From contig JAKEHY010000016.1 of assembly GCA_022614805.1 (NCBI GenBank), positions 1 to 64,000 on the forward strand: 64,000 nucleotides of DNA, given 5' to 3'. Below, piece after piece: positions 5,363 to 34,718 of the stretch (position 1 is the first letter of the stretch; every line of letters begins with the position of its first letter). The translations under genes and the position numbers were made by a program. Source of the DNA: Candidatus Zixiibacteriota bacterium (GTDB taxonomy: Bacteria; Zixibacteria; MSB-5A5; DSPP01). The notes below the pieces were generated by a model, which saw only the letters and a list, made by a program, of their open reading frames with translations, was not told the origin of the DNA and searched no databases.

Positions 5363-7443
5363 GTCTCCTCCGGCGGCTGGAGCGAATATTTCCGGTCGGC
5401 GGTTTTGGTTTCGACCTTCACGGTTCTGGCGCCCATCCTGTTTTCCGAAGCCCCGTTTCCGAAGCCCTCTATTATATTCTCGGCGGCGACCGCTTTATCT
5501 TTCACTACCACGGCGGTAACATCGTCCCCCCAGCCTCCCCCGCCAACAAAGGCGGCCAGTTCGGTTTTCAGCCGGCTGATAAGGGCTTCGGCGGACAGCC
5601 CAGCAGAATCTTCCACCAGCCGGACCAATTGTTCCCGGCCAAAGCGGGACCCGCGACTGTCAGCCGCCTCGACGAGGCCATCCGTATAAAGCAAAAAGAA
5701 ATCCCCCTTTTCCAACGCTATTTTTTCGGTTTTTATTCTTTCCTCAAAGCTGGCTCCTTCCGGCAGGGCCAGCCCCACCGGCAGTCCGGGAGGATTATAA
5801 CTAAAAGCCTTTTTTTCCTCCGCCCGGTACAACAGCATCGGCAGATGCCCGGCGGAAGAAAAGAAAAGAGTGCGCTTTTCGGCATCCAAAAGGGCGAGAA
5901 AAACGGTGACGAACATACCCCGGGCGATCCCTTCGGAAGCCAGCCGGTTGACCCGGCATAAAATCTCGGCCGGAGAAGTTTTCCCTTTCGCCTCCAGCCG
6001 CAAGGCCGTGCGCACCGTCGCCATTCCCAGAGCTCCCGGAACCCCTTTGCCAGAAACATCCGCCACGGCGATGCCCAAAAGCCCTTTTCCAGCCGGAAAG
6101 AAGTCAAAGAAATCCCCCCCCACTTCGCGCGCCGACTGGTACCAGACGGCCACCTCCATACCCTCAATTTTTGGAAACTCGGCCGGCAAGAGGGCGCGCT
6201 GGACCTCCTGCGCCAGCTCCATTTCGCGGCGCAGTTTTTCCTGCTCCAGAAGCTCTTTCCGGGATTTTTTGAAGTAGGCGGTAATCTCGTTCACGGCCCG
6301 GGCGATTTCACCGAATTCATCTTTCCCCATGGCCGGAACCCGGCTTTCCCCCTCCCTGACCCGTCGCAAACCTTCCGTCAGGCGCTGAAAGGGGCGGGAA
6401 AGGTAGGCCCCCAAAACCCATACCGACAGACCGCCAAAAAGAAAAACGGAAAGGCAGATCTGGACGAGGAAAGAACGGGCCTGCGCCAGCTCGGCATCCA
6501 AACCGGCAGTCGAGGCGGAAAGATGGACGGTGCCGAGCCAACTCGTGCCGGAATAGATTTTTTGGGCCATATAGTAGCGGGTTTCCGCCGGGTGGCCGGT
6601 CTTGGACTGGACCGGGTCTTCCGTTATCGTAAAACGTCGGGGAACTCCAGCCGGCCCGGCCGACACTTGGGGCGGCGGCTCATAAACCGAAAGCAGTTGC
6701 CAGGGGCCGAAGGGGTCGGCCCAGACTTTCCCTCCGCGGTCGGCGATGACGAGGGAGGTGAGTTCGGGATGGTCCTGTCTGGTTTTCGCGGTCAGACTGG
6801 AAAGTATCAAATCGTTTTGATTAAAAAGCCCTTCCGCGGCAGCGGAGGCCAGCCCGCCGGCCAAATCTTCAAGTTTTTGCTCAAAATTGGCGGTGATGGT
6901 CTGCGAGAGCTTGCGGTGGGCGACAAAATAACTCCCCAAAACCAAAGCCGTTAGTAGGACCGTTCCGAAAACGGAGACTTTGGCCCGGAGGGAAAAACGG
7001 GCCCGTTGGGGGAAGGTGGAGCCTTTCAAGTGCTTGCGCATCCGAAACTCGTTCTCCTCCCCGCGGGACAAATACCCCACCTCGTCCATTATTTTCTCGA
7101 TGAGGTAAAGCCCCAGCCCTCCCTTGCGGCCGGTTTCCACCAGCCGGGACAAATCCAACCTTTCCCCCTCGGCCAGTTCCAGCCGCCGGCCGCGGTCATA
7201 AAGGGAAAATTCGACATACTCTCTGGCCGTGCGGACGGTGAGCCGCAGGGGTCCTTCGCCAAAGAGATAGGCGTGGCGAATGACGTTGGTGGCGGCCTCC
7301 TCCACCGCCAGCCACAAGGCGCTCTGCTCCTTTACCGGCAGGGACAACTCCCACAAAGCGGAAAGCATAAACTGGCGCAGGGCGGAAAGCTCCTCCGGCC
7401 TGGATTTGAAAAAGGCGGTGCTTTCCTTCAGCACCCGGCTCAT
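5359..7443 (-). CDS. Anti-sigma kinase (RsbW-like) fused to membrane sensor and PP2C phosphatase (RsbU/SpoIIE-like)
   Basis: The 694-residue protein joins both enzymes of a partner-switching pathway. Residues 1-140 are a GHKL kinase: N-box VEEAATNVIRHAY with E49 and N53, and G-box GGLGLYLI near 108-115. A membrane segment (about 153-175), an extracytoplasmic sensor (175-323), a second membrane segment (324-347), a HAMP region (348-398) and a short coiled coil follow. Residues 405-650 are a SpoIIE-type PP2C phosphatase with GGDFFD (442-447) and DVSGKG (462-467). It could phosphorylate and dephosphorylate the STAS protein encoded next, depending on the sensed signal. Its ATG overlaps the PorV gene stop at 7440-7443. 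Confidence 0.85.
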   Translation of the reverse strand: MSRVLKESTAFFKSRPEELSALRQFMLSALWELSLPVKEQSALWLAVEEAATNVIRHAYLFGEGPLRLTVRTAREYVEFSLYDRGRRLELAEGERLDLSRLVETGRKGGLGLYLIEKIMDEVGYLSRGEENEFRMRKHLKGSTFPQRARFSLRAKVSVFGTVLLTALVLGSYFVAHRKLSQTITANFEQKLEDLAGGLASAAAEGLFNQNDLILSSLTAKTRQDHPELTSLVIADRGGKVWADPFGPWQLLSVYEPPPQVSAGPAGVPRRFTITEDPVQSKTGHPAETRYYMAQKIYSGTSWLGTVHLSASTAGLDAELAQARSFLVQICLSVFLFGGLSVWVLGAYLSRPFQRLTEGLRRVREGESRVPAMGKDEFGEIARAVNEITAYFKKSRKELLEQEKLRREMELAQEVQRALLPAEFPKIEGMEVAVWYQSAREVGGDFFDFFPAGKGLLGIAVADVSGKGVPGALGMATVRTALRLEAKGKTSPAEILCRVNRLASEGIARGMFVTVFLALLDAEKRTLFFSSAGHLPMLLYRAEEKKAFSYNPPGLPVGLALPEGASFEERIKTEKIALEKGDFFLLYTDGLVEAADSRGSRFGREQLVRLVEDSAGLSAEALISRLKTELAAFVGGGGWGDDVTAVVVKDKAVAAENIIEGFGNGASENRMGARTVKVETKTADRKYSLQPPEET

Positions 7444-9245
7444 TTCAACCTCTTTTTGGCGTCGGCAACGTTGCGCAAAAGCGCCTCGTTGTTGGGATAA
7501 CGCAAAAGCAAGGACTCCCAGACGTCCAGCGCTTTTTGATACTCGCCGGCGGTATAGGCCGCCAGCCCCTCGTTGTAGAGCCGCCAGGCCTCCGGGTCTT
7601 TTTGCAAATCTTCCAGCCGCGTGCGGGCTTCGGCGGCGGCGCGGATTTTTTGCAGGTAGGCCTGGGCCGCCGGCTCAGCCGGGCGGAGTTTGAGTGCCTG
7701 TTCGAAACTTTCCTGGGCGGCCAAAAGCCGGCCGGCCTCGAAATCGGCGATCCCCTTTTTAAGCAGGTCGGCCACTTTGATTTCCCCAGCCGCCATTTTG
7801 AAACGGGCCGAGGCCGTCGTGTCCGAGGGGTCCAAGGTTCCCATTTTCTCCCACGCCGCCAGGGCGTTTTCAAATTCTTTACGGTTGAAAGCGGCCCAGC
7901 CGGTTGAATCGAGGAGATTTTTGGCCGAGTCCAGGCTCTTTTGAATTCGGCCGGAAAGCTCCGCAAATTCGGAATCTCCCAGCCGGACCTGCTCTTCTAA
8001 AAGAGTTAGGGCGTTTTTGAAATTGCCCAGGGCGTATTCGGTCCGGCCGGACTCGAGCGCTTCCTGCCGGAGGCGCAAGCTTAATGCTTCCTGCTCCTTC
8101 GTTTCTTTTTCCACCTGCAAAAGATGTTCCAGCCGCGCCGCTTCCCTTTTCAAGGCCTCGTTTTCCGGGTCTATCCCCAGGGTCAACCGAAGATAGGCCA
8201 AGGCCGAATCATTTTGGCCGGCGGCGGCGAAAATCTCCGCTTTGGAACGATATTCTTCCAAGCGGGCGCGGTTGGCCCGCAGATAATTTTCACGTTCCTC
8301 CCTTTGCTTCTTTTCCCGGGCGATTTTTTCCCGCTCCCGGACGGGCGTTCCAAAGCGGAAGGAAAACCCGAAGCGGTGGCTGGCGGCCAAGCCTTCCGGC
8401 TGGGGCTTGAAGGCGTAGTCCAAACCGAGCCGATTATAGGCCAGCCCGACGCCGAAGGTTAGGTCCTCCCGGTCATAGCCTCCGCGTATAAAAAAAGAAC
8501 CCCGGTACGACATTTCCGCTCCGGCGTGCCAGGCCACGGGAGCATCTTCCGACTTTTCGGCATCCACGGCCGCACGGATGCCCACGAGGCTTTGACGCAG
8601 GGGCAAAAGATACGACGCGCCGGCTTTGAAATTGCGGGGAATCGACTCCTTGCTGTCTTTGAGCTTCAAATCGGAGGAAACCACGTCCTGGGCGTTCACA
8701 CCAAAAAATAGGCCCTCGTGCGGCTCGACCAGAACGCCCACATCCGCCCCGGCGGCGTTGGCCGAAAAGCCGGCCAAAGACTGGCCGTAAAGCTTAAAGC
8801 TCCCTCCCACGTGGATGAACTTAAACAAAGAATGTCCGTATGCCAACAGAATTTGGGTTTCTGAAAAAGAGACGGAGCCCATATCGACGGCGCGCTCATC
8901 CCGGGAAAAAATGCCATCCGTGCCGACGCGCAAAAAACCCAGAGCAAACGAGCCCGCCTTCACGGTGGGATAGGCCAGCCCGGCAAAATCATATTCGCTT
9001 CCTTCCGGCAGGGTGACGTGCGAAAAACCGAGTTCCCCGAACGAAAGCCGTGCCAACCCGGCCGGGTTCCAGAAAACGGCGGAGGCGTCATCCGCCACGG
9101 AAACGAAACTCCCCCCCATTCCCATGGCCCGGGTTCCGGCCCCGAGCAGAAAAAGAGACGAAGTGCCGGAACTTCCTTCCCGCCCAAAAGCTATCGAGCT
9201 TATCGAGCCGACGGCCAACCAAGCAGATAAAACGAGCTTTTTCAT
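7440..9245 (-). CDS. PorV/PorQ-like outer-membrane barrel fused to TPR domain
   Basis: I place the start at the ATG at 9245, which overlaps the upstream stop (ATGA, 9242-9245) and begins a clear signal peptide (KKLVLSAWLAVGSISSIAFG). Residues about 25-305 match PorV/PorQ-type barrels: GAGTRAMGMGGSFVSVADD, then SAVFWNPAGLA, and a late strand FGFSFRFG. In Bacteroidota PorV carries type IX substrates to the cell surface. Residues 345-601 are helical TPR units (FEQALKLRPAEPAAQAYL; YQKALDVWESLLLRYPNN). A periplasm-facing TPR tail on a PorV barrel is unusual. The neighbour upstream encodes a likely substrate. Confidence 0.75.
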   Translation of the reverse strand: MKKLVLSAWLAVGSISSIAFGREGSSGTSSLFLLGAGTRAMGMGGSFVSVADDASAVFWNPAGLARLSFGELGFSHVTLPEGSEYDFAGLAYPTVKAGSFALGFLRVGTDGIFSRDERAVDMGSVSFSETQILLAYGHSLFKFIHVGGSFKLYGQSLAGFSANAAGADVGVLVEPHEGLFFGVNAQDVVSSDLKLKDSKESIPRNFKAGASYLLPLRQSLVGIRAAVDAEKSEDAPVAWHAGAEMSYRGSFFIRGGYDREDLTFGVGLAYNRLGLDYAFKPQPEGLAASHRFGFSFRFGTPVREREKIAREKKQREERENYLRANRARLEEYRSKAEIFAAAGQNDSALAYLRLTLGIDPENEALKREAARLEHLLQVEKETKEQEALSLRLRQEALESGRTEYALGNFKNALTLLEEQVRLGDSEFAELSGRIQKSLDSAKNLLDSTGWAAFNRKEFENALAAWEKMGTLDPSDTTASARFKMAAGEIKVADLLKKGIADFEAGRLLAAQESFEQALKLRPAEPAAQAYLQKIRAAAEARTRLEDLQKDPEAWRLYNEGLAAYTAGEYQKALDVWESLLLRYPNNEALLRNVADAKKRLK

Positions 9246-12200
9246 TTTACCACCGCCAGCTTTTGCCTGACCACCTCGCCGGTAGCTTTCGAGCGGATGA
9301 CGGCGATGTAGACGCCATTTTTCACCATTTCCCCCCTGCCATTGCAACCGTCCCATTCAAGTTGGTTGACACCGGCGGCGCTGGCGTAGCTTTTTTCGAT
9401 GACCCGTTCGCCCGTCAAGGTGTAAATTTTCAACTCGACTTCCGAAGCGGTTGAAAGCCGGTAGGCGATTTGGATTTTTTCAGCTGGAGGAGAGAACGGA
9501 TTGGGATAGGTGACCAAAGAAGCGGCCAGCCCCGCGCCCGATGCGGTGGTGAAAATGGAGGAAGTGTACTCGAACGGACGGCCGTCCGCTTTCAACAGCA
9601 CCGCCGGCACGGCACCGCCGCCCGCAACGGAGTCAAAAGCTTCGATCCCTTCCGCATCGGTATGGAAGCGGAGGGAAACCGGCGACTGGGCTTCCGGCCG
9701 GATGGAAAGGGAAAAATTCTTCGTCTCCCTTGGCCCAATCAGCACCGGTGGAGAAAAGGCGAAAGCGAGGCTATTATCCTCTACCGTGGCGGCGGCGGAA
9801 TCAACGCCGTCCGAAAGGGTGGCCCGGTCAAAGGCGAAAATATTGTCCGGTGTGCGGAGTCCGCTAAGGCCGAAGGAAATTTTCTTTACCAGAAAAAGAT
9901 GGCTTCCGGTTGCATCGACATTGGTGAAACCGAGACGGAGAGGAGAACTCCATTCCCCGGCATACAAAAGAGGAGCCGGTTTCTCCAAAGCCGTAACCTC
10001 AAGGGCCAATTGAGCCGGCCGAATCCTAAAAGCAAACGCAACGGAGTCCAAAAGCGTTTGTGCCGGCAAGGCCGTGTTGGAATCGGCCGGGACTTGTGCC
10101 CAAGAAGCGACAATTCTTCCAGAGTCGATGATAGCCTGCGCCAACAGTTGAAAAACGGCCGGCTGGGTGAGGCTTATCGAGGCCGCCGAATCGGAAATAA
10201 AGGTCAAAATGGGGGGGACAACTCGCAATCGTACCTGGCCGGCGCTGACCGGTGCTTCCCCCAGATTACGCAGATGAACGGCCAAGGTAAGCGTTTGCCC
10301 AGCCACCAAGGTTCCGGAAGAAGAAGGCGCCACGATTTGGCCAGAAAGCTCCAAAGCGGCCCGGCGCTGACGCAGAACCGTGATTTGGCTCATTTTCAGC
10401 GTGACTTCGGCCGGAGCGGAGGAAATGGTGCCGTGGCCGGGTAAAACCTCCACCCGGTAGGTAACCGGACCCAGCCAGACCGAATCGGCCGGCACGGTCA
10501 AGCTTTTCTCCACAGTTTCCTGGGGGGCCAAAAACGGAACCGTAAGTGAAGTCAGCTGGCTATCCCCCGCCTTTAAGTAAAGCGAGGTGGCCGACAAACT
10601 TTCCGCCGAGGGATTAAAAAGCCGGACGCGAATGGGGAAAGAGCGGTCGCTGTTGACCCGGTTCGGGGAGGGGGTAACGGCCCAGAGGGTGTCCAGTATC
10701 AAACTGGGCTGTGGAAAAAGGGTAACGGAGTCCGGCAGGGTCAAAAGTGAATCCACGGCCAGCCCGTTTTCTACTCCGGAAAGTTGGACGAAGGGACTCC
10801 AGTTAAAAATCCCGTTCGACGGAGTTCGGGGAAACCCGGTAATCTGGAAATCAAGCTCGACTGGCGGGCCCGCGGCTATGGGGGTCGGAGACTGGAGATG
10901 GCCGAAAAGTGAGTCGGCATCGTGCGCCAAGATTAGCCGGGAAAGGGTGTCCGCTTCAAAAGCCGCCTGGCCATTGTTGCCAAACCGCAAGCGGAAGTTA
11001 CGAGTTGCTTCCAAGAGGGCCGTATCGGGAAAGAGAGAACCGGCCACGTAGTAAAGCTTCGAAGGGTCTTCCAGCCGGATGGAATCTCCCAGTGCAAAGG
11101 AGTCGGAGAGGCTCGTGCCATCCCGGCGGCCGAAAACGACCAAGGAGGCCGCAAAACTTCCGGAGGGGAAAGCCGCCGGAAAACTATCCGGCTGAAAGAC
11201 AACCGTGTTCTCGGCATTTTTGGGTAAAAGGGTGACCGCGGAAATTTTGAAAGAACGGAGATACCCCAACCGGTTAAAAACCAGGCGGGTGGCGGAATCC
11301 AGAACCACGTCAAAGTTGGACTGGTTAACCAAATTAAAGGAAAAAGGATACCTTCGACCCTTGGAAACCTTTTCAAAGTTCAACCCTTCGGCAGCGGGGC
11401 GCAGAAAGAGGGAATCGGCCACCGCCAGCGAGTCCAAAACGGGCGTGCGAATGGTTGTAAAGGCCGTGCCGAAGCGCCCGGAAAACTCCAATTGTACGGA
11501 AAACTTCCCCAACGGAAAATCCCCCGGAACGGCCCCCAAGGTCGAATAACTTCTCTTCTCCGAGGACGCCAGAGTGTCGGGCAGCGCGGGCAAAGAAAGA
11601 AAGAGCGACTGCCCGGCCGACAAAAGCCCAATCCCATCCAGGGTAAACGGGCCGGGGGACTGGTTGGCAACCCGGAAAGCGACGGAAATATGCTGGCCCC
11701 GTATGACGTTGGAAGGGACCACTGAAAAAGAGTCGACAAAAATCGAGCGGACTTCAACCGGCGAAGAGGTGCCCGTTTTGCCGCTTGCGCTGACGGCGTT
11801 GAAAATATAACTGCCCGCCGGGCCGAAGAAGGTGACACCCACAGTGGAGAGGTCGGCTGCGCCGGAAACAAAATCGGTCGGAGCTTTTAACACATTTCCT
11901 TCCCAACTGCCGGAAGGTTGGGAGAACAAAACCACGCTGTCGGAGGAAGCGTCGAAATTGTTCTTAAGATTGCCGAAGCGGTCCTTTGCAGTCAGCTTAG
12001 CAGGTGCCGAAAAGGGAACGCCGGAAGTTTGAGGGGAAGCGAGATTCCATTCGAACCTATCTAACCCGGCCGGGGAAACCAATATCGTATCGGAAGAAAA
12101 CCGAAGAGAGCCGGAGACGCCTTCCAGCACCGCTTTTTCCGCCCTGGGTAAAACCGCCTGCCCTTGCCCGGAGCCGTCGGTGACGGAGAGGAGGGGCAAG

Positions 12201-14035
12201 ACGGGGGCATCGCCGGAGGGGGAAATTCCGCCGCCGGATTTGAGGCCAACCTGAACCGAAAGGGAAACTGGATTGTCGTATGCGTCTTCGGCATTTTGGA
12301 CCGAAAGGTCAAAAGGAGTGCCCGCCGTAACATTGGGCGGAACTGAAAGCGAAAAGGAAACCGGAGGCCCGGGCAAAATTAAAAAAGGAGCAGGCGGCGA
12401 ACGCAACGAGTCGTTGCCGAAAGTCAAAGTTTGCGTTCCTTTGGTCAAAAACTTTACCGAAGCGCCGGGAAAAACAGGCCGGCCGGCGTCGGCTGTCGAG
12501 AACGAATAAGGAGTAGCCGCCGGATATCGCAGGAAGGCTCTGGAATCGGAACTGGAAAAATACCCGCTGCCGGTGAAATCGGTTTTCAAATTGCCGAAGC
12601 GGTCTTTGGCTTCGACGGAAAAGGCGGACACCGTGTCGCCGGCCGCCAAAGTATCCGGCAGAAACGACGTGGAAAATCCCCCCAGGGCGGCGGGGCGGAC
12701 GGTAATCGTGTCGCTGAAAGCCGAAAAATAGCCGTTGGAGCCGCGCAGGACGGCGGGCGCAGTGGAAACCAGCGTTTGCCCAGATTCCCCCGTGCCGTCG
12801 ATGACCACCACTGGATTGAAAGCCGACACGGCACCGTTAGGAGAGGGGCCGCCGCCCAAAACAGGAACTACGTTGACCGTACCGGAAGCGGGATTTCCGT
12901 ACAGGTCAACTCCGCCGGCGACGGTAACAGCGAACGCTTTTCCGGCGATTACCTCCGGCGGAGCGAAAAAAAAGAAATCGGACAGGTAGTTGGGTGCGAC
13001 CTGCACCGGGAGCGAAACGCCGGTTTTGCCGTCGGCGGATACAAAGACTTTTCGCGAACCCGCCTTTTTCAGCACGAACTGGCTGCCGGAAAAAGCGTGG
13101 CGTCCGTTATCCCGGCCGGGACCCACGGTGAAAACATACGGCGCGGGCAGAACCGCCAGCGGGTCATCGGAGGAAAAGAAAACCGTGTCGGAAAAATCGG
13201 TCACGGTGTTACCGAACTGGTCTTTGGCCGTGACAACGATGCTATCCCCGGCCGAACCCGGAAAGGGGACTCCGGCTACCGTCGTTTCCGGGGTACCTGT
13301 GACTTCAAAACCGGCCAATTCATCAGCGATTACGTTCAGCTTGAGCGGGATGCTGACCAGTGCTGCGTTCGATGCCAGAATTTCGACCCGACCGGCCCCG
13401 GTGGCGAAGAAGCGGTTGTCGAGAAAAATACCGCTTCCTTCCGAGCCGGGAGGGATTTTCCACTCGACCGAACGTGCGGCGGCCGGATTTCCAAAGCGGT
13501 CTTCCTGCACGGGGGAAAGCGGGGTGAATCGGCCGGCCCGAATGTCGGGTTCCGCCGGCGGAGTTATGGAAAGTTTCACCGCCATATCGGGAACAACTGA
13601 AAAAGGGGCGACGAAACGGGAAATCCGTTCTCCCCCCGGGTTGAAAAGTAAAACCTCGACTTGAAAAGTTTGTGCCCGACGCGGATTTTGAATTTTGTTC
13701 AACTCAAACATAACCGGCCGGCCGGGAAGAATGGAGCCGCTTTTGAAACCGCCCTCGACTTTCTGCCCGGCAACCTTTAAACCGCCGACCCTTAAATCCT
13801 TCGGGGAGCCGTCCGGAACGAAGGTTTCTACCGATTTGAGGGATTTGAGAGCAAAACCGTCTGGAAAGATAAACTGAAAGCTTCCTCCGGAAGGAATCGA
13901 AACATCGGAAATCAAAATCCGGTACGGCTCGGTCTTGTCCACGATGCCGGAGGCGGGGAAAACGGCGATTTCGGCATCCAGTCGCTGAATTCCCAAAAGC
14001 ATTATAATTATAAAACCCCTAAGCCCCTTTTTCAT
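9242..14035 (-). CDS. Giant exported Ig-repeat protein with type IX-like C-terminal sorting domain
   Basis: The protein has 1597 residues. A signal peptide (about 1-21) is followed by many Ig-like beta domains. Several carry the same signature: AKDQFGNTVTDFSDT, AKDRFGNLKTDFTGSG, AKDRFGNLKNNFDAS. This is the pattern of tandem invasin/filamin-like repeats. The middle (about 800-1400) resembles CARDB-type adhesive domains. The last 85 residues are a FlgD-like or type IX sorting domain: YPNPFSP, then YTLTGERV, then GVYIAVIRSK ending in KLAVVK. It is probably a surface adhesin or matrix protein. Both ends overlap neighbours by ATGA (mscS upstream, PorV downstream). Confidence 0.8.
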   Translation of the reverse strand: MKKGLRGFIIIMLLGIQRLDAEIAVFPASGIVDKTEPYRILISDVSIPSGGSFQFIFPDGFALKSLKSVETFVPDGSPKDLRVGGLKVAGQKVEGGFKSGSILPGRPVMFELNKIQNPRRAQTFQVEVLLFNPGGERISRFVAPFSVVPDMAVKLSITPPAEPDIRAGRFTPLSPVQEDRFGNPAAARSVEWKIPPGSEGSGIFLDNRFFATGAGRVEILASNAALVSIPLKLNVIADELAGFEVTGTPETTVAGVPFPGSAGDSIVVTAKDQFGNTVTDFSDTVFFSSDDPLAVLPAPYVFTVGPGRDNGRHAFSGSQFVLKKAGSRKVFVSADGKTGVSLPVQVAPNYLSDFFFFAPPEVIAGKAFAVTVAGGVDLYGNPASGTVNVVPVLGGGPSPNGAVSAFNPVVVIDGTGESGQTLVSTAPAVLRGSNGYFSAFSDTITVRPAALGGFSTSFLPDTLAAGDTVSAFSVEAKDRFGNLKTDFTGSGYFSSSDSRAFLRYPAATPYSFSTADAGRPVFPGASVKFLTKGTQTLTFGNDSLRSPPAPFLILPGPPVSFSLSVPPNVTAGTPFDLSVQNAEDAYDNPVSLSVQVGLKSGGGISPSGDAPVLPLLSVTDGSGQGQAVLPRAEKAVLEGVSGSLRFSSDTILVSPAGLDRFEWNLASPQTSGVPFSAPAKLTAKDRFGNLKNNFDASSDSVVLFSQPSGSWEGNVLKAPTDFVSGAADLSTVGVTFFGPAGSYIFNAVSASGKTGTSSPVEVRSIFVDSFSVVPSNVIRGQHISVAFRVANQSPGPFTLDGIGLLSAGQSLFLSLPALPDTLASSEKRSYSTLGAVPGDFPLGKFSVQLEFSGRFGTAFTTIRTPVLDSLAVADSLFLRPAAEGLNFEKVSKGRRYPFSFNLVNQSNFDVVLDSATRLVFNRLGYLRSFKISAVTLLPKNAENTVVFQPDSFPAAFPSGSFAASLVVFGRRDGTSLSDSFALGDSIRLEDPSKLYYVAGSLFPDTALLEATRNFRLRFGNNGQAAFEADTLSRLILAHDADSLFGHLQSPTPIAAGPPVELDFQITGFPRTPSNGIFNWSPFVQLSGVENGLAVDSLLTLPDSVTLFPQPSLILDTLWAVTPSPNRVNSDRSFPIRVRLFNPSAESLSATSLYLKAGDSQLTSLTVPFLAPQETVEKSLTVPADSVWLGPVTYRVEVLPGHGTISSAPAEVTLKMSQITVLRQRRAALELSGQIVAPSSSGTLVAGQTLTLAVHLRNLGEAPVSAGQVRLRVVPPILTFISDSAASISLTQPAVFQLLAQAIIDSGRIVASWAQVPADSNTALPAQTLLDSVAFAFRIRPAQLALEVTALEKPAPLLYAGEWSSPLRLGFTNVDATGSHLFLVKKISFGLSGLRTPDNIFAFDRATLSDGVDSAAATVEDNSLAFAFSPPVLIGPRETKNFSLSIRPEAQSPVSLRFHTDAEGIEAFDSVAGGGAVPAVLLKADGRPFEYTSSIFTTASGAGLAASLVTYPNPFSPPAEKIQIAYRLSTASEVELKIYTLTGERVIEKSYASAAGVNQLEWDGCNGRGEMVKNGVYIAVIRSKATGEVVRQKLAVVK

Positions 14036-15084
14036 AGTGTCCGGTTTTCTTTAAGCCAGACCTCCTTCTGGGCGAAACGTATTTTGGCATCCTTCAGCAA
14101 CTGCAGGGCACGCAGGCGCACCCCTTCAGCCGCAATTCCTTTTTTATCCAAATCGGAAACCCAGAAAAAAAGCGAAAATTCCAGGCCAGCCTCGGTCAAA
14201 TCGGAAAGCAAAAGGGCCGGCTCCGGTTCCCGCAAAATTCCAGGCGTGGCGGAAAGGGCCTTCTCGAAAATGTTTTTTGCTTTTTCCACCGGCGAATCGT
14301 GGGACAGAACGAATTTCAGCGAAACGCGGGCGCGCGGGTCGGGAAGGGAAAGGTTGGTGAGCCGGGTGCGGACCAGCTCCACGTTGGGTACGACCAGAAT
14401 CGAACCGTCGTCGTTCAAAAACCGGCTGGAACGCAGTCCGATTTCAACCACGATTCCGGATTCTCCGCTGGAGAGAGCCACCCTGTCCCCGACGCGGAAG
14501 GGACGGTCGGCCATCAAAATAAAACCGGAAATCATATTGGAAAGAGTATCCTGCGCGGCCAAGGCGAAAGCCAAAGAGGAGATGCCGGCGACGGCCAAAA
14601 GTCCCTTGATGTCGATTTTGAAATGGTCCAAAATCACCAAGAGCGCCAGAAAAAAGATTGCGCCTTTCAGAATACGGTTGAAAAGAATCACAAACTGGGC
14701 ATCCATCCCAGCCTGCGTGCGGGCCGCCAAAAGCCGGGAATACCAGGCCAGTCCGGCGGCCGCAAGACGGTAGAGCAGATAGACAACCAAGGCCACCGCG
14801 ATGATAAAAATCAGCGCATCCAGCCCGTTAAAAATCCAGCCGGCCACCCGGGTGGGATAGGTGGCTTTCAGCCGGTTGAAAACCGCCACCAGTCCGCAGG
14901 CGACAATCAGGTGAAAAACCGGCCAGCGGGAGGCAAAAAGGAGCTCGTCGGCCAGGGTCTTTCCTCTCTTCAGGAAAATTTGGGTGCGGGCCAAACGCAA
15001 AAAGAAGTTCGCCGCGGCGGCCGCCACGGTCGCAACCCCGAGAATGAGAAGACCGATTAGTACTTCCTTAAGCCATACCGGCAT
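14032..15084 (-). CDS. Small-conductance mechanosensitive channel, MscS family
   Basis: The 350-residue protein has three or four N-terminal membrane segments and the MscS pore-lining helix with its small residues (LAVAGISSLAFALAAQ, about 163-178). This is followed by FILMADRPFRVGDRV and the beta domain (GIVVEIGLRSSRF, then VVPN). Such channels open under membrane tension and release solutes on osmotic downshift. It is the first gene of the coupled operon that also encodes the surface protein, PorV and the partner-switching proteins. The link to surface stress sensing is inference. Confidence 0.9.
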   Translation of the reverse strand: MPVWLKEVLIGLLILGVATVAAAAANFFLRLARTQIFLKRGKTLADELLFASRWPVFHLIVACGLVAVFNRLKATYPTRVAGWIFNGLDALIFIIAVALVVYLLYRLAAAGLAWYSRLLAARTQAGMDAQFVILFNRILKGAIFFLALLVILDHFKIDIKGLLAVAGISSLAFALAAQDTLSNMISGFILMADRPFRVGDRVALSSGESGIVVEIGLRSSRFLNDDGSILVVPNVELVRTRLTNLSLPDPRARVSLKFVLSHDSPVEKAKNIFEKALSATPGILREPEPALLLSDLTEAGLEFSLFFWVSDLDKKGIAAEGVRLRALQLLKDAKIRFAQKEVWLKENRTL

Positions 15085-25802: not shown

Positions 25803-25834
25803 AAGAACAATATACAAAAAGAACAGTGTACCTT

Positions 25835-25923
25835 GTCATTTCGAACGAAGTGAGAAATCTGGGTGGGGAAGGGAGAAGTCCCTCCACCCCGCTGCCCAGA
25901 TTCCTCGCTTTGCTCGGAATGAC
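25835..25923. repeat. Palindromic repeat, GTCATT ... GGAATGAC type, copy 1
   Basis: The left end reads GTCATTTCGAACGAAG and then GAGAAATCTGGG. The right end reads CCCAGATTCCTCG and then CTCGGAATGAC. An inner stem pairs GTGGGG with CACCCC. The same ends flank 34620-34718. It fills the gap between the divergent pcm and eno genes. Confidence 0.75.
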
Positions 25924-27293: not shown

Positions 27294-27678
27294 GCCGGCG
27301 CGAAAGGAAAGCTCCTTTGTCAGCCGCATACGCGACCGGGCTTTGGGGTCGAAAAAATCGTTCCGGCTTTTTTTGTGGCTGGCCGGCTCCATTGTGCTGT
27401 TGTATCTTTTTGCCACCGGCAATTTCGGCTTTTTGCGCATTTTGTCGCTTTATGAAAAGCGGGAAAACCTGATTCGGGAGAACCGTTATTTGACGGTTGT
27501 GCAGGCCGATTTGGAGTGGCGCAAGCGGGAGCTGGCCAAAAACCCTGTCTTGGTGGAGAAACTGGCCCGCGAAAAGATGGGTTTGACCAAAAAGGGGGAA
27601 ATTCTCTACAAAATCATTCCTCCCAAGGATTCCACCCCGAAGTTTGAAGAGGGGGCTTATGCCCCTTTACAAAACTAA
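27286..27678 (+). CDS. Septum formation initiator family protein (FtsB/DivIC-like)
   Basis: The 130-residue protein has a basic N-terminus, one membrane helix (about 27-44) and then a coiled coil ([20 protein letters not shown]). The closing motif [18 protein letters not shown] is typical of FtsB/DivIC divisome proteins. These link FtsL and FtsQ at the division site. A GGAG site lies inside the end of eno, before the ATG. The gene order eno-ftsB is common in bacteria. Confidence 0.85.
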
Positions 27679-28438
27679 CGCCGTCGTCTTGGGCAGCCGC
27701 CGCTTCGGCGACACCTCCAAAATCATCTCCGCCTATACCGCCGAGTTTGGCAAGGTTCATCTTTTAGCCAAGGGTGCCCTGACGCCGAAGAGCAAATTTC
27801 TTTCCGCCTTGGAGACCTTTTCCGAAAGCGAGCTGGTCTTTTATCACAAGACCACAACCGAATTGCACCTCCTTTCGCAGGCAGCTCTTTTGAAATCTCA
27901 CCTTCGCTTGGCGGATAAAGTCGAAATTTTCCCCTTCGCCGCCGCCGCCTGCGAAATAACGGATGAATGGATTAAAGGTGAGGAGCAAAACCCGGCCTAC
28001 TATCAGTTGCTCGTGAGTTTTCTCAACCGGCTCGAGATGGCCACTCCGGTTCAAGCTCCTCTTTTCTTTTGGCTTTTCGTCTATTACGGCGCTTCCATTT
28101 TGGGCTTCCGTCCCAATTTGGAGGCCTGTTTTCGCTGCGGCAAGAAAGAAGATAAAAAGAGCTACCTTTTTCACCCCGAAAAAGGCGGCCTGGTCTGCGC
28201 CGAGGACGCCCGCGAAAGCGAAAGGTATTTGAAGGTCTCCGCTGACTTGAAGAATCTCGCCCAATCCCTCGCCCATTCCGATTTCGAAGCCGCCTCGCAT
28301 CTGGAATCCCTTCCCTCGGATGCCTCGGGACAAGCCAAACTGGTCAAAGAGCTATCCGAGTTCTTGAAGGACTTCCTTCTGGTGCAGGGGGTCTGGAAGG
28401 AACTGCCGGGGAGTTTGGGGCTTGGACAAAAAAACTAA
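27659..28438 (+). CDS. recO: DNA repair protein RecO
   Basis: RecO loads RecA onto SSB-coated single-stranded DNA together with RecR. ATG at 27659 is chosen because GAGGGGG lies just upstream and the N-terminus [20 protein letters not shown] is canonical; it overlaps the preceding gene by 20 bases. The OB fold (1-80) is followed by helices and a zinc-site remnant, CFRCGKKEDKK with a third Cys in GLVCAED. The last 22 codons (KDFLLVQGVWKELPGSLGLG region) recur twice downstream, see the separate repeat entries. Confidence 0.92.
   Translation: MPLYKTNAVVLGSRRFGDTSKIISAYTAEFGKVHLLAKGALTPKSKFLSALETFSESELVFYHKTTTELHLLSQAALLKSHLRLADKVEIFPFAAAACEITDEWIKGEEQNPAYYQLLVSFLNRLEMATPVQAPLFFWLFVYYGASILGFRPNLEACFRCGKKEDKKSYLFHPEKGGLVCAEDARESERYLKVSADLKNLAQSLAHSDFEAASHLESLPSDASGQAKLVKELSEFLKDFLLVQGVWKELPGSLGLGQKN
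28367..28425 (+). repeat. recO 3'-end repeat, copy A (inside recO)
   Basis: This 59-base stretch is the genuine recO tail. Copy B at 29107-29165 matches it at 53 of 59 positions. Copy C at 30188-30237 matches the first 40 positions at 34. All three read in the same RecO frame. Confidence 0.85.
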
Positions 28439-28543
28439 GGGCTTGACTTGGCGGGGAAAATAATAATATTCAATTCCGGGAGGGGGCAATCTCTATAATC
28501 ATTTTAGGCCGCACGTTATGCGTGCAAAACGAAGGGAGATACT

Positions 28544-29050
28544 ATGCGTTTGAAGTTGATACTTATTATGCTTTTGCTATGTACGGGTTTTGCCGCCGGG
28601 CAGGATGTTCCACTGGGTCAGGGCCTCACAGTTGGGGGTGCCGGCGGGGTTGCGTTCATGGATAACAGCGGCATCGATGCCCGTGCTTCGGCGTGGTTCC
28701 ATGTGACCAAATTCTTAGACCGCACCTGGGGGCTAAGTGTTCTGGTTCAAGGAGTCCCTATGAGCGTCCTTGGTGCGGACTTTGCTTTAGCTGGCGATCC
28801 GGGCGTAGTCGCACGCGTTGCCAAAGGGCGGGTTCTATTTCGGGCTGGACCGAGTATTTTAATGCCATTCGGCGGAGGAGAAGGGGCGCAAGCTCACTTG
28901 GGAGGGCACGTCGGGATTGCTTGGGCACCGCTTGACCTCGGCAAGGTCTCGTTCTACATCCAAGGGATTCAACACTTCTATTCCGTTAATGGCAGTTTCG
29001 TCCGTTATCCCGGAGTCGGAATCGGACTAACCACGTTAGGCCGACCGTAA
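28544..29050 (+). CDS. Exported small beta-barrel-like protein, unknown
   Basis: The product has 168 residues. A clear signal peptide ends at about residue 19 (LCTGFAAGQ). The mature part has alternating hydrophobic strands with many Gly residues (GQGLTVGGAGGVAFMD, ARASAWFHV, GHVGIAWAPL). This suggests a small outer-membrane barrel or barrel-like secreted protein. AAGGGAG at about 28531 gives a good ribosome site, and a perfect TATAAT lies at 28494-28499 without a clear -35. The gene sits between two copies of the recO tail. No family recognised. Confidence 0.6.
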   Translation: MRLKLILIMLLLCTGFAAGQDVPLGQGLTVGGAGGVAFMDNSGIDARASAWFHVTKFLDRTWGLSVLVQGVPMSVLGADFALAGDPGVVARVAKGRVLFRAGPSILMPFGGGEGAQAHLGGHVGIAWAPLDLGKVSFYIQGIQHFYSVNGSFVRYPGVGIGLTTLGRP

Positions 29051-29106
29051 CGGCGATACTACCGCGTCTCTACTTGAAATGCGGAGGTTTCACGCTATTC
29101 TTATGG

Positions 29107-29165
29107 AAGGATTTCCTTTTGGTGCAGGGGGTCTGGAAACAACTGCCGGGGAGTCTGGGGCTGGG
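29107..29165 (+). repeat. recO 3'-end repeat, copy B
   Basis: This copy encodes KDFLLVQGVWKQLPGSLGLG followed by a stop, but no recO body precedes it. Of the differences from copy A only one changes an amino acid (Glu to Gln); the rest are synonymous. Similarity continues past the stop to a shared GCTTGACT element (28442-28449 and 29182-29189). Confidence 0.85.
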
Positions 29166-29183
29166 CTAAAGCAGCCAAAGCGC

Positions 29184-29211
29184 TTGACTCCCTCTCGGGG
29201 GGCATTATTTT
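29184..29211 (+). promoter_or_regulatory. Possible promoter of the 286-residue barrel gene
   Basis: TTGACT (29184-29189) and TATTTT (29206-29211) are 16 bases apart, about 85 bases before the ATG at 29297. The TTGACT is part of the sequence shared with the region behind recO. Confidence 0.35.
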
Positions 29212-29296
29212 ACATGCAAGCGAAAGGAGTTTCTGAAGGCATAGTTAACGAGGTACGAGCTTTCCAAAACGCCCGTACGGGCAGAAAGAGGTTAAC

Positions 29297-30157
29297 ATGC
29301 TTAAGAAGAGCAAACAAAACGCAAGCTGGCTGGCCTTGGCCATCGCCCTCGTTTTAATCCCGTTCATCCCCGATTTAAACGCCCAGGAGCTTCCATCCTA
29401 CCTGCGGGATCGGGGCACCGGCGTTCCCTCCTCGATGTTTGGCACTTACTTGCAAAAAGGGGAGCTGCGGGTCTATCCCTACTTCGAGTGGTACGCCGAC
29501 TCGGACCTCGAATACAAGCCAAGCGAACTGGGTTATTGGCTGGAGGTCGACTACCGCGGGCGTTACCGCGCCTCCGAGTGGCTTTTGTTCCTTGGTTACG
29601 GCCTCACCTCCGACCTCGTCCTCGAGTTCGAGGCGGCGGCCATCTCCGCCGAGTTGGAAAAATCCTCCAACGACACCTCGGCTATGCCCCAAGACGTGGA
29701 AGAATCCGGCTTGGGGGACGTGGAGGCGCAGCTTCGCTGGCGTTTTCTTCGTGAGAACCAAAGCCGGCCGGAGGTTTTTACCTACTTCGAGACGGTCTTC
29801 CCGCTGCAGAAAACGAGGCGGCTCATCGGCACTTCTGACTGGGAGTTCAAGCTGGGTTTCGGCGCCGTCCGGGGGTTTGGCTGGGGGACGATGACTTTGC
29901 GCTTGGCCGTGGACTACACCCGGGCGGAGCGGAAGTTCGAGGCCGGCAGCTATGCGCTCGAATACTTGAAGCGTCTTTCGCCCGCTTGGCGGGCGGTCGC
30001 CTTAATCGAGGGGAATCAGTTCGACGAAGTGGAGCTTATCACCGAGATGCAGTGGTACATAAACCCGCGCACCTACCTCAAGTTCAACAACGGCTGGGGG
30101 CTGACCACAAACGCCACCGACTTCGCCCCTGAAGTGGGCCTTATGTTTTCGTTTTGA
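29297..30157 (+). CDS. Exported beta-barrel (porin-like) protein
   Basis: The 286-residue protein has a signal peptide (about 1-30, ending LNAQE). The body of amphipathic strands is rich in Trp, Tyr and Gly (LRVYPYFEWYADSDLEY, LFLGYGLTSDLVLEFEA), and the last residue is phenylalanine (VGLMFSF). A C-terminal Phe after an amphipathic strand is the usual signal for BAM-dependent outer-membrane insertion. AGAGG stands before the ATG. Substrate unknown. The gene lies between recO-tail copies B and C. Confidence 0.65.
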   Translation: MLKKSKQNASWLALAIALVLIPFIPDLNAQELPSYLRDRGTGVPSSMFGTYLQKGELRVYPYFEWYADSDLEYKPSELGYWLEVDYRGRYRASEWLLFLGYGLTSDLVLEFEAAAISAELEKSSNDTSAMPQDVEESGLGDVEAQLRWRFLRENQSRPEVFTYFETVFPLQKTRRLIGTSDWEFKLGFGAVRGFGWGTMTLRLAVDYTRAERKFEAGSYALEYLKRLSPAWRAVALIEGNQFDEVELITEMQWYINPRTYLKFNNGWGLTTNATDFAPEVGLMFSF

Positions 30158-30187
30158 TACCTGCTCGTTGTTCGGGCCAAGTTTTTG

Positions 30188-30237
30188 CAGGACTTCCTTT
30201 TGGTGCGGGGGATGTGGAAGGAAGTGCCGAAAAGCTT
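30188..30237 (+). repeat. recO 3'-end repeat, copy C (diverged)
   Basis: In the RecO frame it reads QDFLLVRGMWKEVPKSLELQ and runs to a TGA. It matches copy A at 34 of the first 40 bases and then diverges. It marks the left border of the A+T-rich HNH cassette. Confidence 0.7.
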
Positions 30238-30324
30238 AGAATTACAAAAGAGTCGCCCTTCTAATTGAAAATTTCTATTAAATCAATTAACTTGGCCTTC
30301 ACCTTGAAAGGAGGAACAAGCAAT

Positions 30325-30630
30325 ATGCCAAAAAGCTCCTATTATTTAACTTCTCTCAGTAAAGACAGAACGCCTGTCGCTTGGGCGATTACAAACGGGG
30401 ATATAAAGACAGAACTAAAACAAATTTTAGAGCGAAAACCAAAAAAAGAGGAAATAGAAATTGCTACTAAAATGATTGGTGAGGCGATTTCCGATTGGCC
30501 AGTGATTTTAAGTGAAAACCTAAACTGGATAACGGATGTGAAACGAAGAGAAGATTTAATGCGGAGGTATACACAACCCCAAAAAGCAGGACGGGTGCAA
30601 AATGGAGAAATTCACAAGAATAAAAAATAG
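30325..30630 (+). CDS. Unknown 101-aa protein, first gene of HNH cassette
   Basis: ATG at 30325 follows AAAGGAGG at 30307-30314, a strong ribosome site, so I use it instead of an earlier in-frame ATG at 30265. The product is soluble and charged, with a helical middle (KTELKQILERKPKKEEIEIA). I recognise no family. The DNA is A+T-rich compared with recO and uvrA. The gene overlaps the next one by 29 bases, so the three genes to 31638 form one unit. Confidence 0.55.
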   Translation: MPKSSYYLTSLSKDRTPVAWAITNGDIKTELKQILERKPKKEEIEIATKMIGEAISDWPVILSENLNWITDVKRREDLMRRYTQPQKAGRVQNGEIHKNKK

Positions 30631-30886
30631 GGTTGACCATCTCGCAAAGGGGGATGTGGTAACCCTTGAATTGGGCTTTTGTCCATTTTGTAAAAGTTTA
30701 ACAGATTTTAGGGGGGAATTTCTCCCCTGTTGCGGTGAAGACATTGATACTTTACGGAATGAAAAAAAATCAAGCACCATAGTTTTTGAGGCAAAAGTTA
30801 CGGCCATTAATGAATTAGACCTGCAAAAGCTTTCCGCCTTCACCAAGCGCATCTTTAAAGGAAGACATACCGAATGGAAAAGTTAG
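30602..30886 (+). CDS. Small zinc-ribbon-like protein
   Basis: The 94-residue product has a C-x-x-C pair (CPFC, 27-30) and a second Cys pair (LPCCG, about 43-44) that could bind one metal ion. The remaining residues suggest a small alpha/beta fold. It overlaps both neighbours (29 bases upstream, 13 bases downstream). It may be an accessory or specificity subunit of the HNH protein; that is inference from gene order only. Confidence 0.55.
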   Translation: MEKFTRIKNRVDHLAKGDVVTLELGFCPFCKSLTDFRGEFLPCCGEDIDTLRNEKKSSTIVFEAKVTAINELDLQKLSAFTKRIFKGRHTEWKS

Positions 30887-31638
30887 AACGCATAGTCTGG
30901 AAAGAAAACGAGAATGCCGTAGAATTAGGCTTCGAGTTTTATCTTCAGCTTTTGGAGAAAAGAATTAAAGGCAAAGACATCTCATTAGTCCAAGAATTGC
31001 GGAAATTCTTCAAAAACCAACTCGGAATTTCTCTTCGCGAAACCCAGGCTCGTGGGCTGATGCACAAAAGTTCATCGATATTCATTGACTATGTTGAAAC
31101 TGTTGCTGGAGAAAATTTTAATCCGACAAGTGAATTCTGGGCAGCACAAGGCATCGACAAATTTTTGGAATGGAAAAAGAAATGGGAATTTTTGAAGAAA
31201 CAAGAAGCGGTTGATCTTGAAATACCTGCTCAAGAAGCCGAAGAATCAGCGCCCAAAAAATCAACGACAACCATAACGAGAACTATTCGGGATAATGCCT
31301 TGAGTCGTTTCTTAAAGGGTGTTTATGATTACCAATGTCAAATCTGCACCTTCACCTTTTTGACTCCCAAAGGAGTTCATTACGCCGAAAGCCATCACAT
31401 AAGGCCACTGGGCCGCAAACATAACGGGATAGATAAGGAAACAAATATGTTAGTCTTGTGCCCGCTCCATCACGCAATGTTTGATTTCGGTGCAATTGCG
31501 GTCGAACCAAAGAAAAGAATAATTTTAAGCATTGATGAGGGCGTAAAGGAAGTCGGCAAGAAAATGGCTTTAGAAAAGCACAAACTTAACACGGACTTTC
31601 TGGAATATCATCTTAACTATATCTACGACAAGGTTTAA
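30874..31638 (+). CDS. HNH endonuclease
   Basis: The 254-residue protein has a helical N-terminal domain (1-110), an acidic/Ser-Pro linker (111-135) and an HNH nuclease domain (140-225). Visible catalytic and zinc residues are C155-x-x-C158, H174-H175 in ESHHIRPLG, N191, C196 and H199-H200 in CPLHH. This arrangement is common in restriction-type HNH enzymes. The A+T-rich DNA and its place between a recO-tail repeat and uvrA suggest horizontal gain. Anti-phage function is likely but unproven. Confidence 0.8.
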   Translation: MEKLERIVWKENENAVELGFEFYLQLLEKRIKGKDISLVQELRKFFKNQLGISLRETQARGLMHKSSSIFIDYVETVAGENFNPTSEFWAAQGIDKFLEWKKKWEFLKKQEAVDLEIPAQEAEESAPKKSTTTITRTIRDNALSRFLKGVYDYQCQICTFTFLTPKGVHYAESHHIRPLGRKHNGIDKETNMLVLCPLHHAMFDFGAIAVEPKKRIILSIDEGVKEVGKKMALEKHKLNTDFLEYHLNYIYDKV

Positions 31639-31786
31639 TTACCGGTAAGGGCACACCCCAACCCCCACCTACCCCCACCAAATACTAATTGCCTCTCCCC
31701 TGAAATTTTGGTATTTTACGGGCTTGCCTTTTGAGGTGGTGTGGTTCGACCAGCTCACCCATCTCGAGGCCGAGGAGTACATACCG

Positions 31787-34609
31787 GTGATAGAGACAAT
31801 CCGAATTCAGGGCGCAAGAGAGCATAACTTAAAGAACATAAGCTTGGAACTCCCCCGCGATAAGCTGGTGGTATTCACGGGGTTATCCGGGTCGGGCAAG
31901 TCCAGCTTGGCGTTTGACACCATCTACGCCGAAGGTCAAAGGCGCTATGTGGAATCCCTCTCCGCCTACGCCCGCCAGTTCTTGGGGCTGATGGAAAAGC
32001 CGGACGTCGATTTAATCGACGGCCTCTCCCCGGCCATCTCGATTGAACAAAGGAGCTCGGCCAAAAACCCCCGCTCCACCGTCGGCACGGTCACCGAAAT
32101 TTATGATTATTTGAGATTGCTCTTTGCCCGTATCGGCATCCCCCACTGCTACAAATGCGGCCGCAAAATCTCCAAGCAGACCACCGACCAGATTGTGGAT
32201 AGGGTGCTGGAATTTCCCAAGGGGGCCAAAATTCAAATTCTGGCCCCCCTCGTCTCCGGCCGCAAAGGGGAGCACCGCGAGGTCTTAGAGGAAGCCAAAA
32301 AGAAGGGCTTCATCCGCGCCCGCGTGGATGGCAAAGTGGCGGAGATTTCCGACGAGATTAAGCTGGACAAAAAGAAAAAACATTCGATTGAAATCGTGGT
32401 GGACCGGCTGGTGGTGGAAGCGAAAATCCAAAAGCGGCTGGCCGATTCGCTGGAGACGGCGTTGAAGTTGGGCTCCGGGGTGGTAGTCGTGAACGAGATT
32501 GGCAAGGAAGACCATCTTTTTTCGCAAAACTACGCCTGCGTCTATTGCGGCATTTCGTACGAAGAGCCGACCCCGCGCCTTTTCTCCTTCAACTCCCCCT
32601 TCGGCGCCTGCCCCGAATGCGACGGGCTGGGGTCCAAAATGGAAATCGACCCGGGTTTGGTGGTGCCCGACTCCAAACGCTCCATCAACGCCGGCGCCAT
32701 CGCCCCCTGGGGGATTAATTTGGGGGGCTGGTTTCAGTTTATGGTGCGGGGGGTTCTGGAAAATTACGGCCAGAACGCCAATACGCCGTTTTACAAGCTG
32801 CCGGAGGAGGTGAAGAAGGTTCTGCTCTACGGCTCCGGCGCCAAGGAGATGAAATTTCAATACGAGCATTCGGAAGGGCGTGGGAAGGGGGAGTATCTCT
32901 CCAGCTTCGAGGGAATCATTCCGCAGTTGGAACGCCGCTTCCGCCAGACCGAATCGGAGGGGGTGCGGAACTGGATTGAGCAGTTTATGACCGTCCGCCC
33001 CTGCCCCAAATGCGAAGGCGCCCGGCTGAAAAAGGAGGCCCTTTCGGTTAAAATAGCCGACCGGTCGATTCGGGACGTCACCGCCTTTTCGGTCAAGGCG
33101 GCCGCCGGGTTTTTCAACAACCTGTCGCTTTCCAAAAAAGAGCAAATCATCGCCCGGCAGATTATCAAGGAAATCCGCGAGCGGCTCACCTTTCTGGTCA
33201 ACGTCGGGCTGGATTATCTGACCTTGGACCGGAGCGCCTCCTCCCTTTCCGGCGGGGAGGCCCAGCGCATCCGCCTGGCCACCCAAATCGGTTCGCGGTT
33301 GATGGGCGTGCTCTATATTTTGGACGAGCCCTCCATCGGCCTGCACCAGCGGGACAACAAGAAGTTGCTGCGGACCTTGACCGATTTGCGCGACATCGGC
33401 AACACCGTGATTGTGGTGGAGCACGACCGGGAAACGATCGAAATGGCCGACTGGGTCGTGGATTTGGGCCCCGGCGCGGGAAAAGACGGCGGGGAGGTGG
33501 TGGCGCAGGGAACGCCGGAGGCGATTTCGCGAAACGGACGCTCGCTGACCGGGCAGTACATCTCCGGCAAAAAATTCATTCCCATTCCGCCGCGGCGTCG
33601 GAACGGCAAAGGAGAGCACATCTATCTTTTTGGCGCCGCCGGCAACAATTTGAAAAAAATCGAGGTGAAGTTTCCGTTGGGGCTTTTCATCTGCGTCACC
33701 GGCGTTTCCGGCTCGGGGAAATCGACTTTGGTGAACGAAACGTTGTACCGGATTCTGGCACAGGAGTTCTACAACTCCAAGACCCCGCCGCTTTCCTACG
33801 AAAAAATCGAGGGGCTGAACAGAATAGACAAAGTGATTGACATCGACCAGTCACCGATTGGCCGCACGCCCCGCTCCAACCCGGCGACCTACACCGGCGT
33901 TTTTACTTACATCCGCGACCTTTTTGCCCAGCTACCGGAGGCCAAGATACGCGGCTATGCGCCGGGGCGGTTTTCCTTCAACGTCGCCGGCGGGCGCTGC
34001 GAGGCCTGTGAAGGGGACGGCATCATCAAAATCGAAATGCACTTTCTGCCGGACGTCTACGTTCCCTGCGAGGTTTGCAAGGGGGCGCGCTACAACCGGG
34101 AAACTTTGGAGGTGAAATACAAGGGAAAATCGATTGCCGAGGTTTTGGATATGACCGTCGTCGATGCCTTGGAATTTTTCGAGAACATTCCCAGAATCCG
34201 TAAAAAATTGCAGACCCTGGCCGATGTCGGTTTGAGCTACATCCATCTGGGCCAGCAGGCCACCACCCTTTCCGGTGGCGAGGCCCAGCGTGTCAAACTT
34301 TCCACCGAGCTTTCCAAGACCGCGACGGGAAATACTTTTTACATTCTGGACGAGCCTACCACCGGCCTGCATTTCGAAGATATCAAGATGTTGTTGGGCG
34401 TTTTGAACGCGCTGGTGGAACGCGGCAACACCGTTTTGGTCATCGAGCACAATCTGGACGTAATCAAAACCGCCGACTACATCATCGACTTGGGGCCCGA
34501 AGGCGGCGACGCCGGCGGCAAGGTGGTGGCCAGCGGCACGCCGGAAGAGGTGGCCGCCGTCCGCGAATCCTACACCGGTCAGTTTCTGCGCAAGACGTTG
34601 AGCGATTAA
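31787..34609 (+). CDS. uvrA: Excinuclease ABC subunit A
   Basis: UvrA recognises DNA damage in nucleotide excision repair. GTG at 31787 gives 940 residues, the length of E. coli UvrA, and GAGGAG lies nine bases before it; a TTG at 31724 would add 21 atypical residues. Both ABC ATPase modules are complete: [14 protein letters not shown] and [14 protein letters not shown] as Walker A, two LSGGEAQR signatures, [10 protein letters not shown] and [10 protein letters not shown] as Walker B. Zinc-site cysteines are present (CYKCG, CVYC with CPEC, CEAC with CEVC). No uvrB or uvrC is in the window. Confidence 0.96.
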
Positions 34610-34619
34610 TCCCCCGTTT

Positions 34620-34718
34620 GTCATTTCGAACACGGTGAGAAATCTGGGCGGAGGGGCCGGGAAACTCCACACCACTCAACCCAGATTCCTCGTCCGCCTT
34701 CGGCGGACTCGGAATGAC
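34620..34718. repeat. Palindromic repeat, GTCATT ... GGAATGAC type, copy 2
   Basis: It has the same ends as 25835-25923: GTCATTTCGAAC, GAGAAATCTGGG, then CCCAGATTCCTCG and CTCGGAATGAC. The right arm holds its own hairpin, GTCCGCC/GGCGGAC. It lies between the convergent uvrA and birA genes and could act as a two-way terminator. Confidence 0.75.

Follow-up and report, generated by a model that had tools for sequence, protein, structure and literature searches.

Elements such as CIMEs and IMEs accrete at the 3′ ends of genes: the gene end is restored, the old end is kept as a distal repeat, and further elements can follow in tandem. At the joints left by homology-facilitated illegitimate recombination (HFIR), the non-homologous side often has 3–10 nt of microhomology. 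Effector–immunity arrays of the Vibrio cholerae T6SS have been explained by serial displacement, for which HFIR was proposed, and orphan Rhs 3′ ends are discussed in the same work (PMC5361080). In Helicobacter pylori, insertion with long target duplication has been described (Nobusato et al. 2000, as relayed in PMC1643837 and PMC4978471). Experiments in Escherichia coli gave end duplications of 109–950 bp that were attributed to a single crossover of circular molecules, and published HFIR mostly deletes resident DNA instead of duplicating it – a point that counts against HFIR at the locus described here (PMC3240628).

We analyzed a 64,000-nt stretch of DNA from a Candidatus Zixiibacteriota bacterium (hereafter the window) in which displaced copies of the recO 3′ end lie behind intact genes.

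Results

The window encodes a functional copy of recO (27662..28438, plus strand; RecO_N 7e-20 and RecO_C 2e-16, Pfam) whose product ends in ...GLGQKN and shares 87% amino acid identity with the RecO of a congener from the same genus (G001), and only ~30% with the RecO of class members. The recO 3′ end is present three times, always on the plus strand – tail A (28361..28448), which is the end of recO itself followed by a −35-like GCTTGACT; tail B (29101..29189), which has its own GCTTGACT; and tail C (30177..30268), which is the most diverged. They form one direct-repeat family (28361–28430 within recO, 29101–29170 and 30182–30251). Tail B is 90% identical to A over 60 nt and tail C is 85% identical to A over 53 nt, with the start of C at 30177 corresponding to recO 28356. 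Using tail B as a query against the whole genome of the window (G000), we recovered A at an E-value of 3.3e-17 and C at 1.5e-5, which bears out the three copies reported in the first-pass annotation. The next match had an E-value of 0.05, and this search found no recO tail outside the recO locus. A dispersed-repeat reading was dropped because the tails are confined to recO within the genome.

The RecO frame is kept in both displaced copies and B keeps its stop (29167–29169), as first annotated. Over their common 57 nt, A and B differ at five synonymous codons and a single nonsynonymous codon, again in line with the earlier count. Tail C had been taken for a partial copy of 40 nt, and its 34 identities to A over those 40 nt matched our count by eye, but the RecO frame stays open in it as far as a stop of its own (30266–30268), with the translation QDFLLVRGMWKEVPKSLELQKSRPSN. 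With this in-frame TGA in C, each of the three tails is a complete recO end. Tail C has more amino acid changes than the other tails and keeps KSLEL, which resembles the LKSLEFL C-terminus of RecO in class relatives. RecO of this genus (28350–28438 in the window) lacks the YHxG...LKSLEFL C-terminal motif of class relatives, and only tail C resembles that motif.

The homology between A and B extends beyond the stop over a total of 89 nt (82% identity) and reaches GCTTGACT, which is found at 28441–28448 after A and at 29182–29189 after B. CTTGACT is also present at the same place after the G001 recO. The promoter-like element thus travels with the tail: it does follow both A and B, as had been noted, but it is part of their homology and not an extra coincidence. 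Just upstream of B, nothing but a few bases is in common with recO. The junctions of B and C map within ~10 nt of each other in recO, and we found neither recO head sequence beside B or C nor an intact recO duplicate.

Between A and B lies cargo 1 (28544..29050, plus strand), an orphan of 168 amino acids with a signal-peptide-like start, whose stop falls 50 nt ahead of tail B. No homologue was found in G001, 132 genomes of the phylum, GTDB contigs, IMG/VR or plasmids, and its coding score of 0.09 per codon is under the genome’s 5th percentile. Between B and C lies cargo 2 (29297..30157, plus strand), a barrel-like gene that stops 19 nt ahead of tail C, lacks a Pfam match and has a native-like coding score of 0.91; of the beta-barrel-like genes originally proposed for each interval, this is the one that stands. 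A G001 orthologue (74% amino acid identity) occupies the same position. Relatives in three other class members (G017, G019 and G022) are 57–60% identical, although RecO itself is only ~30% identical to that of class members, and do not adjoin recO – in G017 and G019 the two genes are on different contigs – and these are single genes around which comparable tail duplication was not seen. Cargo 2 is an old, host-adapted gene.

Behind tail C lies cargo 3 (30322..31638, plus strand), an AT-rich foreign block (GC 0.39, compared with 0.54 for the genome) of three ORFs, the last of which encodes an HNH_2 endonuclease (30874–31638; HNH_2 3.6e-9, with weak ZorE/HNH matches). At this position before uvrA, G001 carries a different module with an MzaB-like ATPase. 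The uvrA gene (31724..34609, plus strand) is the conserved right border of the variable interval, with 81% nucleotide identity and the same order in G001. The recO–uvrA interval is a place of repeated exchange. Elsewhere in the window, a dispersed repeat of ~75 nt occurs at 25833–25907 and 34618–34692 (77% identity; the reverse strand reads HSEQSEES...FVRNDK) and probably represents a REP-like family.

The history at recO was read from the single available congener, G001; a GTDB scan for recO gave no usable result. Counting recO tails in relatives had been proposed as a check, and the G001 recO has one tail only, which is B-type. GAT, TTG, AAA, CAA and the stop position are common to G001 and B, and at the recO tail sites G001 agrees with B at five and with A at one, making A the odd one out. 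Tail B aligns with G001 over an unbroken 151 nt that takes in the recO end, stop, promoter and leader, and the G001 tail joins the barrel-gene orthologue directly, without a break. A second G001 tail near 4910 of the reversed contig (a 22–27-nt match) was discounted because it also reads as a hairpin after a stop codon.

Because the B-type tail is joined to the barrel gene in G001, B with the barrel gene is the older, inherited state, and A with cargo 1 is an insertion in the window’s lineage. Lacking cargo 1, G001 provides the empty site for this last recO insertion. Tail C is probably older still than B: its divergence, its amino acid changes and its KSLEL suggest, rather than prove, that it is the oldest of the three.

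We screened the last or first 150 nt of each predicted gene for copies within 6 kb, covering 1.71 Mb of the same genome and 1333 genes. Non-coding copies comprised tails downstream of 18 genes, heads upstream of four, heads downstream of three and tails upstream of two. Robust loci were picked by hand once paralogues, domain repeats and dispersed repeats were out. Dockerin-like clusters (contigs C25 and C5), T9SS-like C-termini (C18) and tandem VOC genes (C1 and C15) were left out, and C13a 51603, C33, C19 and C30 were likewise kept from the tally.

Besides recO, five loci in the screened 1.71 Mb survive – thyX, YCII, an Nramp-like transporter, an SH3/TPR gene and an outer-membrane gene (OMP). 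At each of them the architecture is a gene, an intact cargo and an in-frame displaced copy of the gene’s own tail. Both recO and YCII have two units. At the YCII locus, a YCII cargo and then a RibD-type cargo precede a DinB gene, and the repeat takes in the start of the next gene; apart from this start inside one YCII unit, no head-type locus was left after the same filtering. The SH3/TPR cargo is a sigma/anti-sigma pair (the names Nramp-like, SH3/TPR and sigma/anti-sigma were judged by eye from protein sequence). Sampling 279 kb of G001 turned up the same architecture at gyrB and at a RibD-like gene. There, gyrB is followed by an MNT/HepT (nucleotidyltransferase/HepT) toxin–antitoxin pair and a displaced gyrB tail at 95% identity (L129, reverse strand, 10975–11740). 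The interval after gyrB is wholly different in G001 and G000 (contig C5).

The architecture is thus present at eight genes across two congeners, and the tails of different loci have no sequence in common; the recO-specific integration site suggested in the first-pass annotation is not supported, given this pattern at seven other, unrelated genes. As controls, 345 genes of E. coli K-12 (400 kb) gave no such locus and 336 genes of a genome from the same order (G002) gave one weak tail candidate, numbers that are too small for a claim that the genus is exceptional.

The SH3/TPR locus gives a second clean empty site: G001 aligns over 1.56 kb (77%) with the displaced tail and the gene that follows it, and lacks the cargo. 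At all loci, same-strand cargos stop 0–50 nt ahead of the displaced tail, and displaced tails are ~40–116 nt long. The Nramp and SH3 cargos are on the opposite strand, for which reason the idea of a reverse-transcribed operon was dropped.

We observed two further arrangements. Ahead of rpsI, the rplM 3′ end and its 3′ UTR hairpin are duplicated in tandem over 172 nt (L094, contig C32, 740–1050); the duplication is cargo-free, differs at five synonymous codons and one nonsynonymous codon, and was kept apart from the tally. A dense array of YCII, RibD_C, DinB, VOC and DUF1761-like genes with displaced tails (L102, reverse strand, 6680–9922 and 12197–14290) includes a VOC paralogue with an internal deletion and a head, MQKITPF, that recurs on unrelated genes. 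This array looks like a site of repeated gene gain.

Across eight comparisons of attached and displaced tails, 38 synonymous and 18 nonsynonymous codons differ, where ~24% synonymous would be expected by chance (p 2e-10). Changes private to the displaced tail are 11 synonymous and eight nonsynonymous. The in-frame stop is kept in nine of ten displaced tails, the exception being the G001 RibD-like copy. This synonymous excess and the kept stops indicate that most of the divergence between the tails built up while each was still a working gene end. Together with the B-type tail of G001, the synonymous-rich differences uphold the earlier proposal that the tails derive from different functional recO alleles, with the gene end restored each time; at recO, no relative with a decaying tandem duplication was found. 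The displaced tail rather than the attached one carries the G001 allele at 5:1 sites in recO, 4:0 in thyX and 7:2 in SH3. Nramp (8:11), OMP (2:2) and the rplM tandem (3:3) show no consistent polarity.

Discussion

We consider it probable that these loci arose through homology-anchored, one-ended insertion of congener DNA. An incoming fragment from a close relative would carry the congener’s recO end, the downstream promoter and a new gene, and would recombine by homology with the resident recO through the common tail. The far end of the fragment would be joined a few dozen bases before the resident stop codon, with no extended homology at that joint, and the resident tail would be kept, pushed downstream behind the cargo. 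The chemistry could be HFIR, or the fragment could circularize and then undergo one crossover in the tail. After each event, recO would still work but end in a new allele (the donor-type tail A), an intact new gene would be served by the promoter that came with the tail, and the old tail would persist as a fossil (tail B, the displaced former native end); serial gains would place the newest insertion nearest recO. A cargo that inherits the promoter region after the anchor gene would explain the −35-like element common to the recO units.

Several observations fit such insertion. Both the resident tail B and G001 can be aligned with tail A, which gives a homologous anchor on one side, and at both recO and SH3 direct repeats flank an insert for which G001 has the empty site. 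The genome has a predicted ComEC and no predicted Ku. No donor with recO(A)–cargo 1 was seen, so the donor, like the uptake route and the recombination chemistry, is one that we infer. Against such insertion, three loci (Nramp, OMP and rplM) have mixed polarity, and random fragment ends would not yield the gene-precise cargo ends and rather uniform tail lengths (~40–116 nt) observed here. This precision may reflect selection for intact cargo, or existing cassettes that spread between relatives via their flanking tails.

Insertion with target duplication, where the attached and displaced tails would both come from the same resident target, is possible but rather unlikely. Direct repeats do flank each cargo at several loci, as described in H. 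pylori, and the YCII repeat even takes in part of the neighboring gene; the mixed polarity at Nramp, OMP and rplM is neutral and leaves room for target duplication at some loci. At recO, thyX and SH3, however, changes fall mostly on the functional copy (16:3 summed), although a copy free of selection would be expected to change no more slowly, and those on the displaced copies are synonymous-rich. Site-specific integration, with an att site in the recO 3′ end, a recombinase in trans and CIME-like accretion, would suit the closely spaced B and C junctions, the restored gene end typical of integrases and the two extra tyrosine recombinases on contig C21. We nevertheless regard it as very improbable, given that eight genes share the architecture with different tails rather than a single attachment site. 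No unit at the recO locus contains an integrase or, as first annotated, any recombinase. Nor was a recombinase in trans borne out: no serine recombinase was found, and four tyrosine recombinases lie elsewhere, with the Xer-like ones on other contigs and without a visible link to the tail loci. The tails do not fold like attC and fold no better than shuffles (z ~0, for tails other than the G001 tail); an integron cassette array was rejected on the same result, as no attC-like folding site was found beside the genes.

Two other explanations carry still less weight. That the tails are remnants of complete tandem recO paralogues with deleted 5′ parts is hard to credit: at one other locus, a VOC gene on C15, a paralogue with an internal deletion does retain both head and tail, but beside B and C the head of recO is absent, and the intervals are filled by unrelated, intact genes. 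An assembly chimera joining contigs of different strains is highly unlikely. The assembly does consist of multiple contigs and every tail looks like a functional allele, yet the copies differ by 10–29%, which is not strain-level divergence; recO, B and the barrel gene are independently present in G001; no cargo gene is broken before it reaches a joint; and the recO locus lies inside a 78-kb contig.

Returning to one-ended insertion of congener DNA, displaced tails look like marks of gene gain by a general recombinase-free route rather than by a special recO element. The entry of single foreign genes without mobile elements is usually inferred from the absence of other signals. Displaced allelic tails offer a positive, orderable footprint for which any genome, that of an uncultured organism included, can be screened; here they flag genes gained next to the core genes recO, gyrB and thyX and indicate the newest insertion. 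If the donor reading is true, they also reveal the donor’s relatedness. A broader view, which we put forward as doubtful, is that the genus has an unusually active, gene-precise way of gaining genes without a recombinase. The ends of housekeeping genes would be its landing pads; homology-borne cassettes, each made of a tail, a promoter and one intact gene, would pass between relatives and pile up with the newest in front, and the displaced tails would form a readable, genome-wide record of gain.

Among known systems, displaced recO-type tails are closest in logic to the serial displacement of T6SS arrays. In both, the newest module is nearest the anchor, the former 3′ end is pushed downstream, and several rounds produce arrays (PMC5361080). 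In the T6SS arrays, however, the anchor’s variable 3′ domain is itself the cargo, whereas at our loci housekeeping genes act as anchors, have no more than their end restored, and are followed by cargo to which they are unrelated. HFIR and the crossover of circularized fragments share with our loci one homologous anchor and inserts of ~1 kb and have one non-homologous joint, for which the far side of the recO insert is a candidate, and the latter duplicates the homologous end, as here, though over 109–950 bp rather than ~40–116 nt (PMC3240628). The H. pylori insertions, as far as the citing accounts describe them, likewise involve genes flanked by target direct repeats without a transposase (PMC1643837, PMC4978471); unlike in those accounts, the repeats here are allelic gene ends and not plain duplicates, and the cargo is not mainly restriction–modification. 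A restored gene end, an old end kept as a distal repeat and tandem accretion are shared with CIMEs and IMEs, from which our loci differ in having no recombinase seen in the units, no common att site and several unrelated target genes. What is unusual here is the repeated use of ordinary housekeeping genes as anchors, in two species of one genus.
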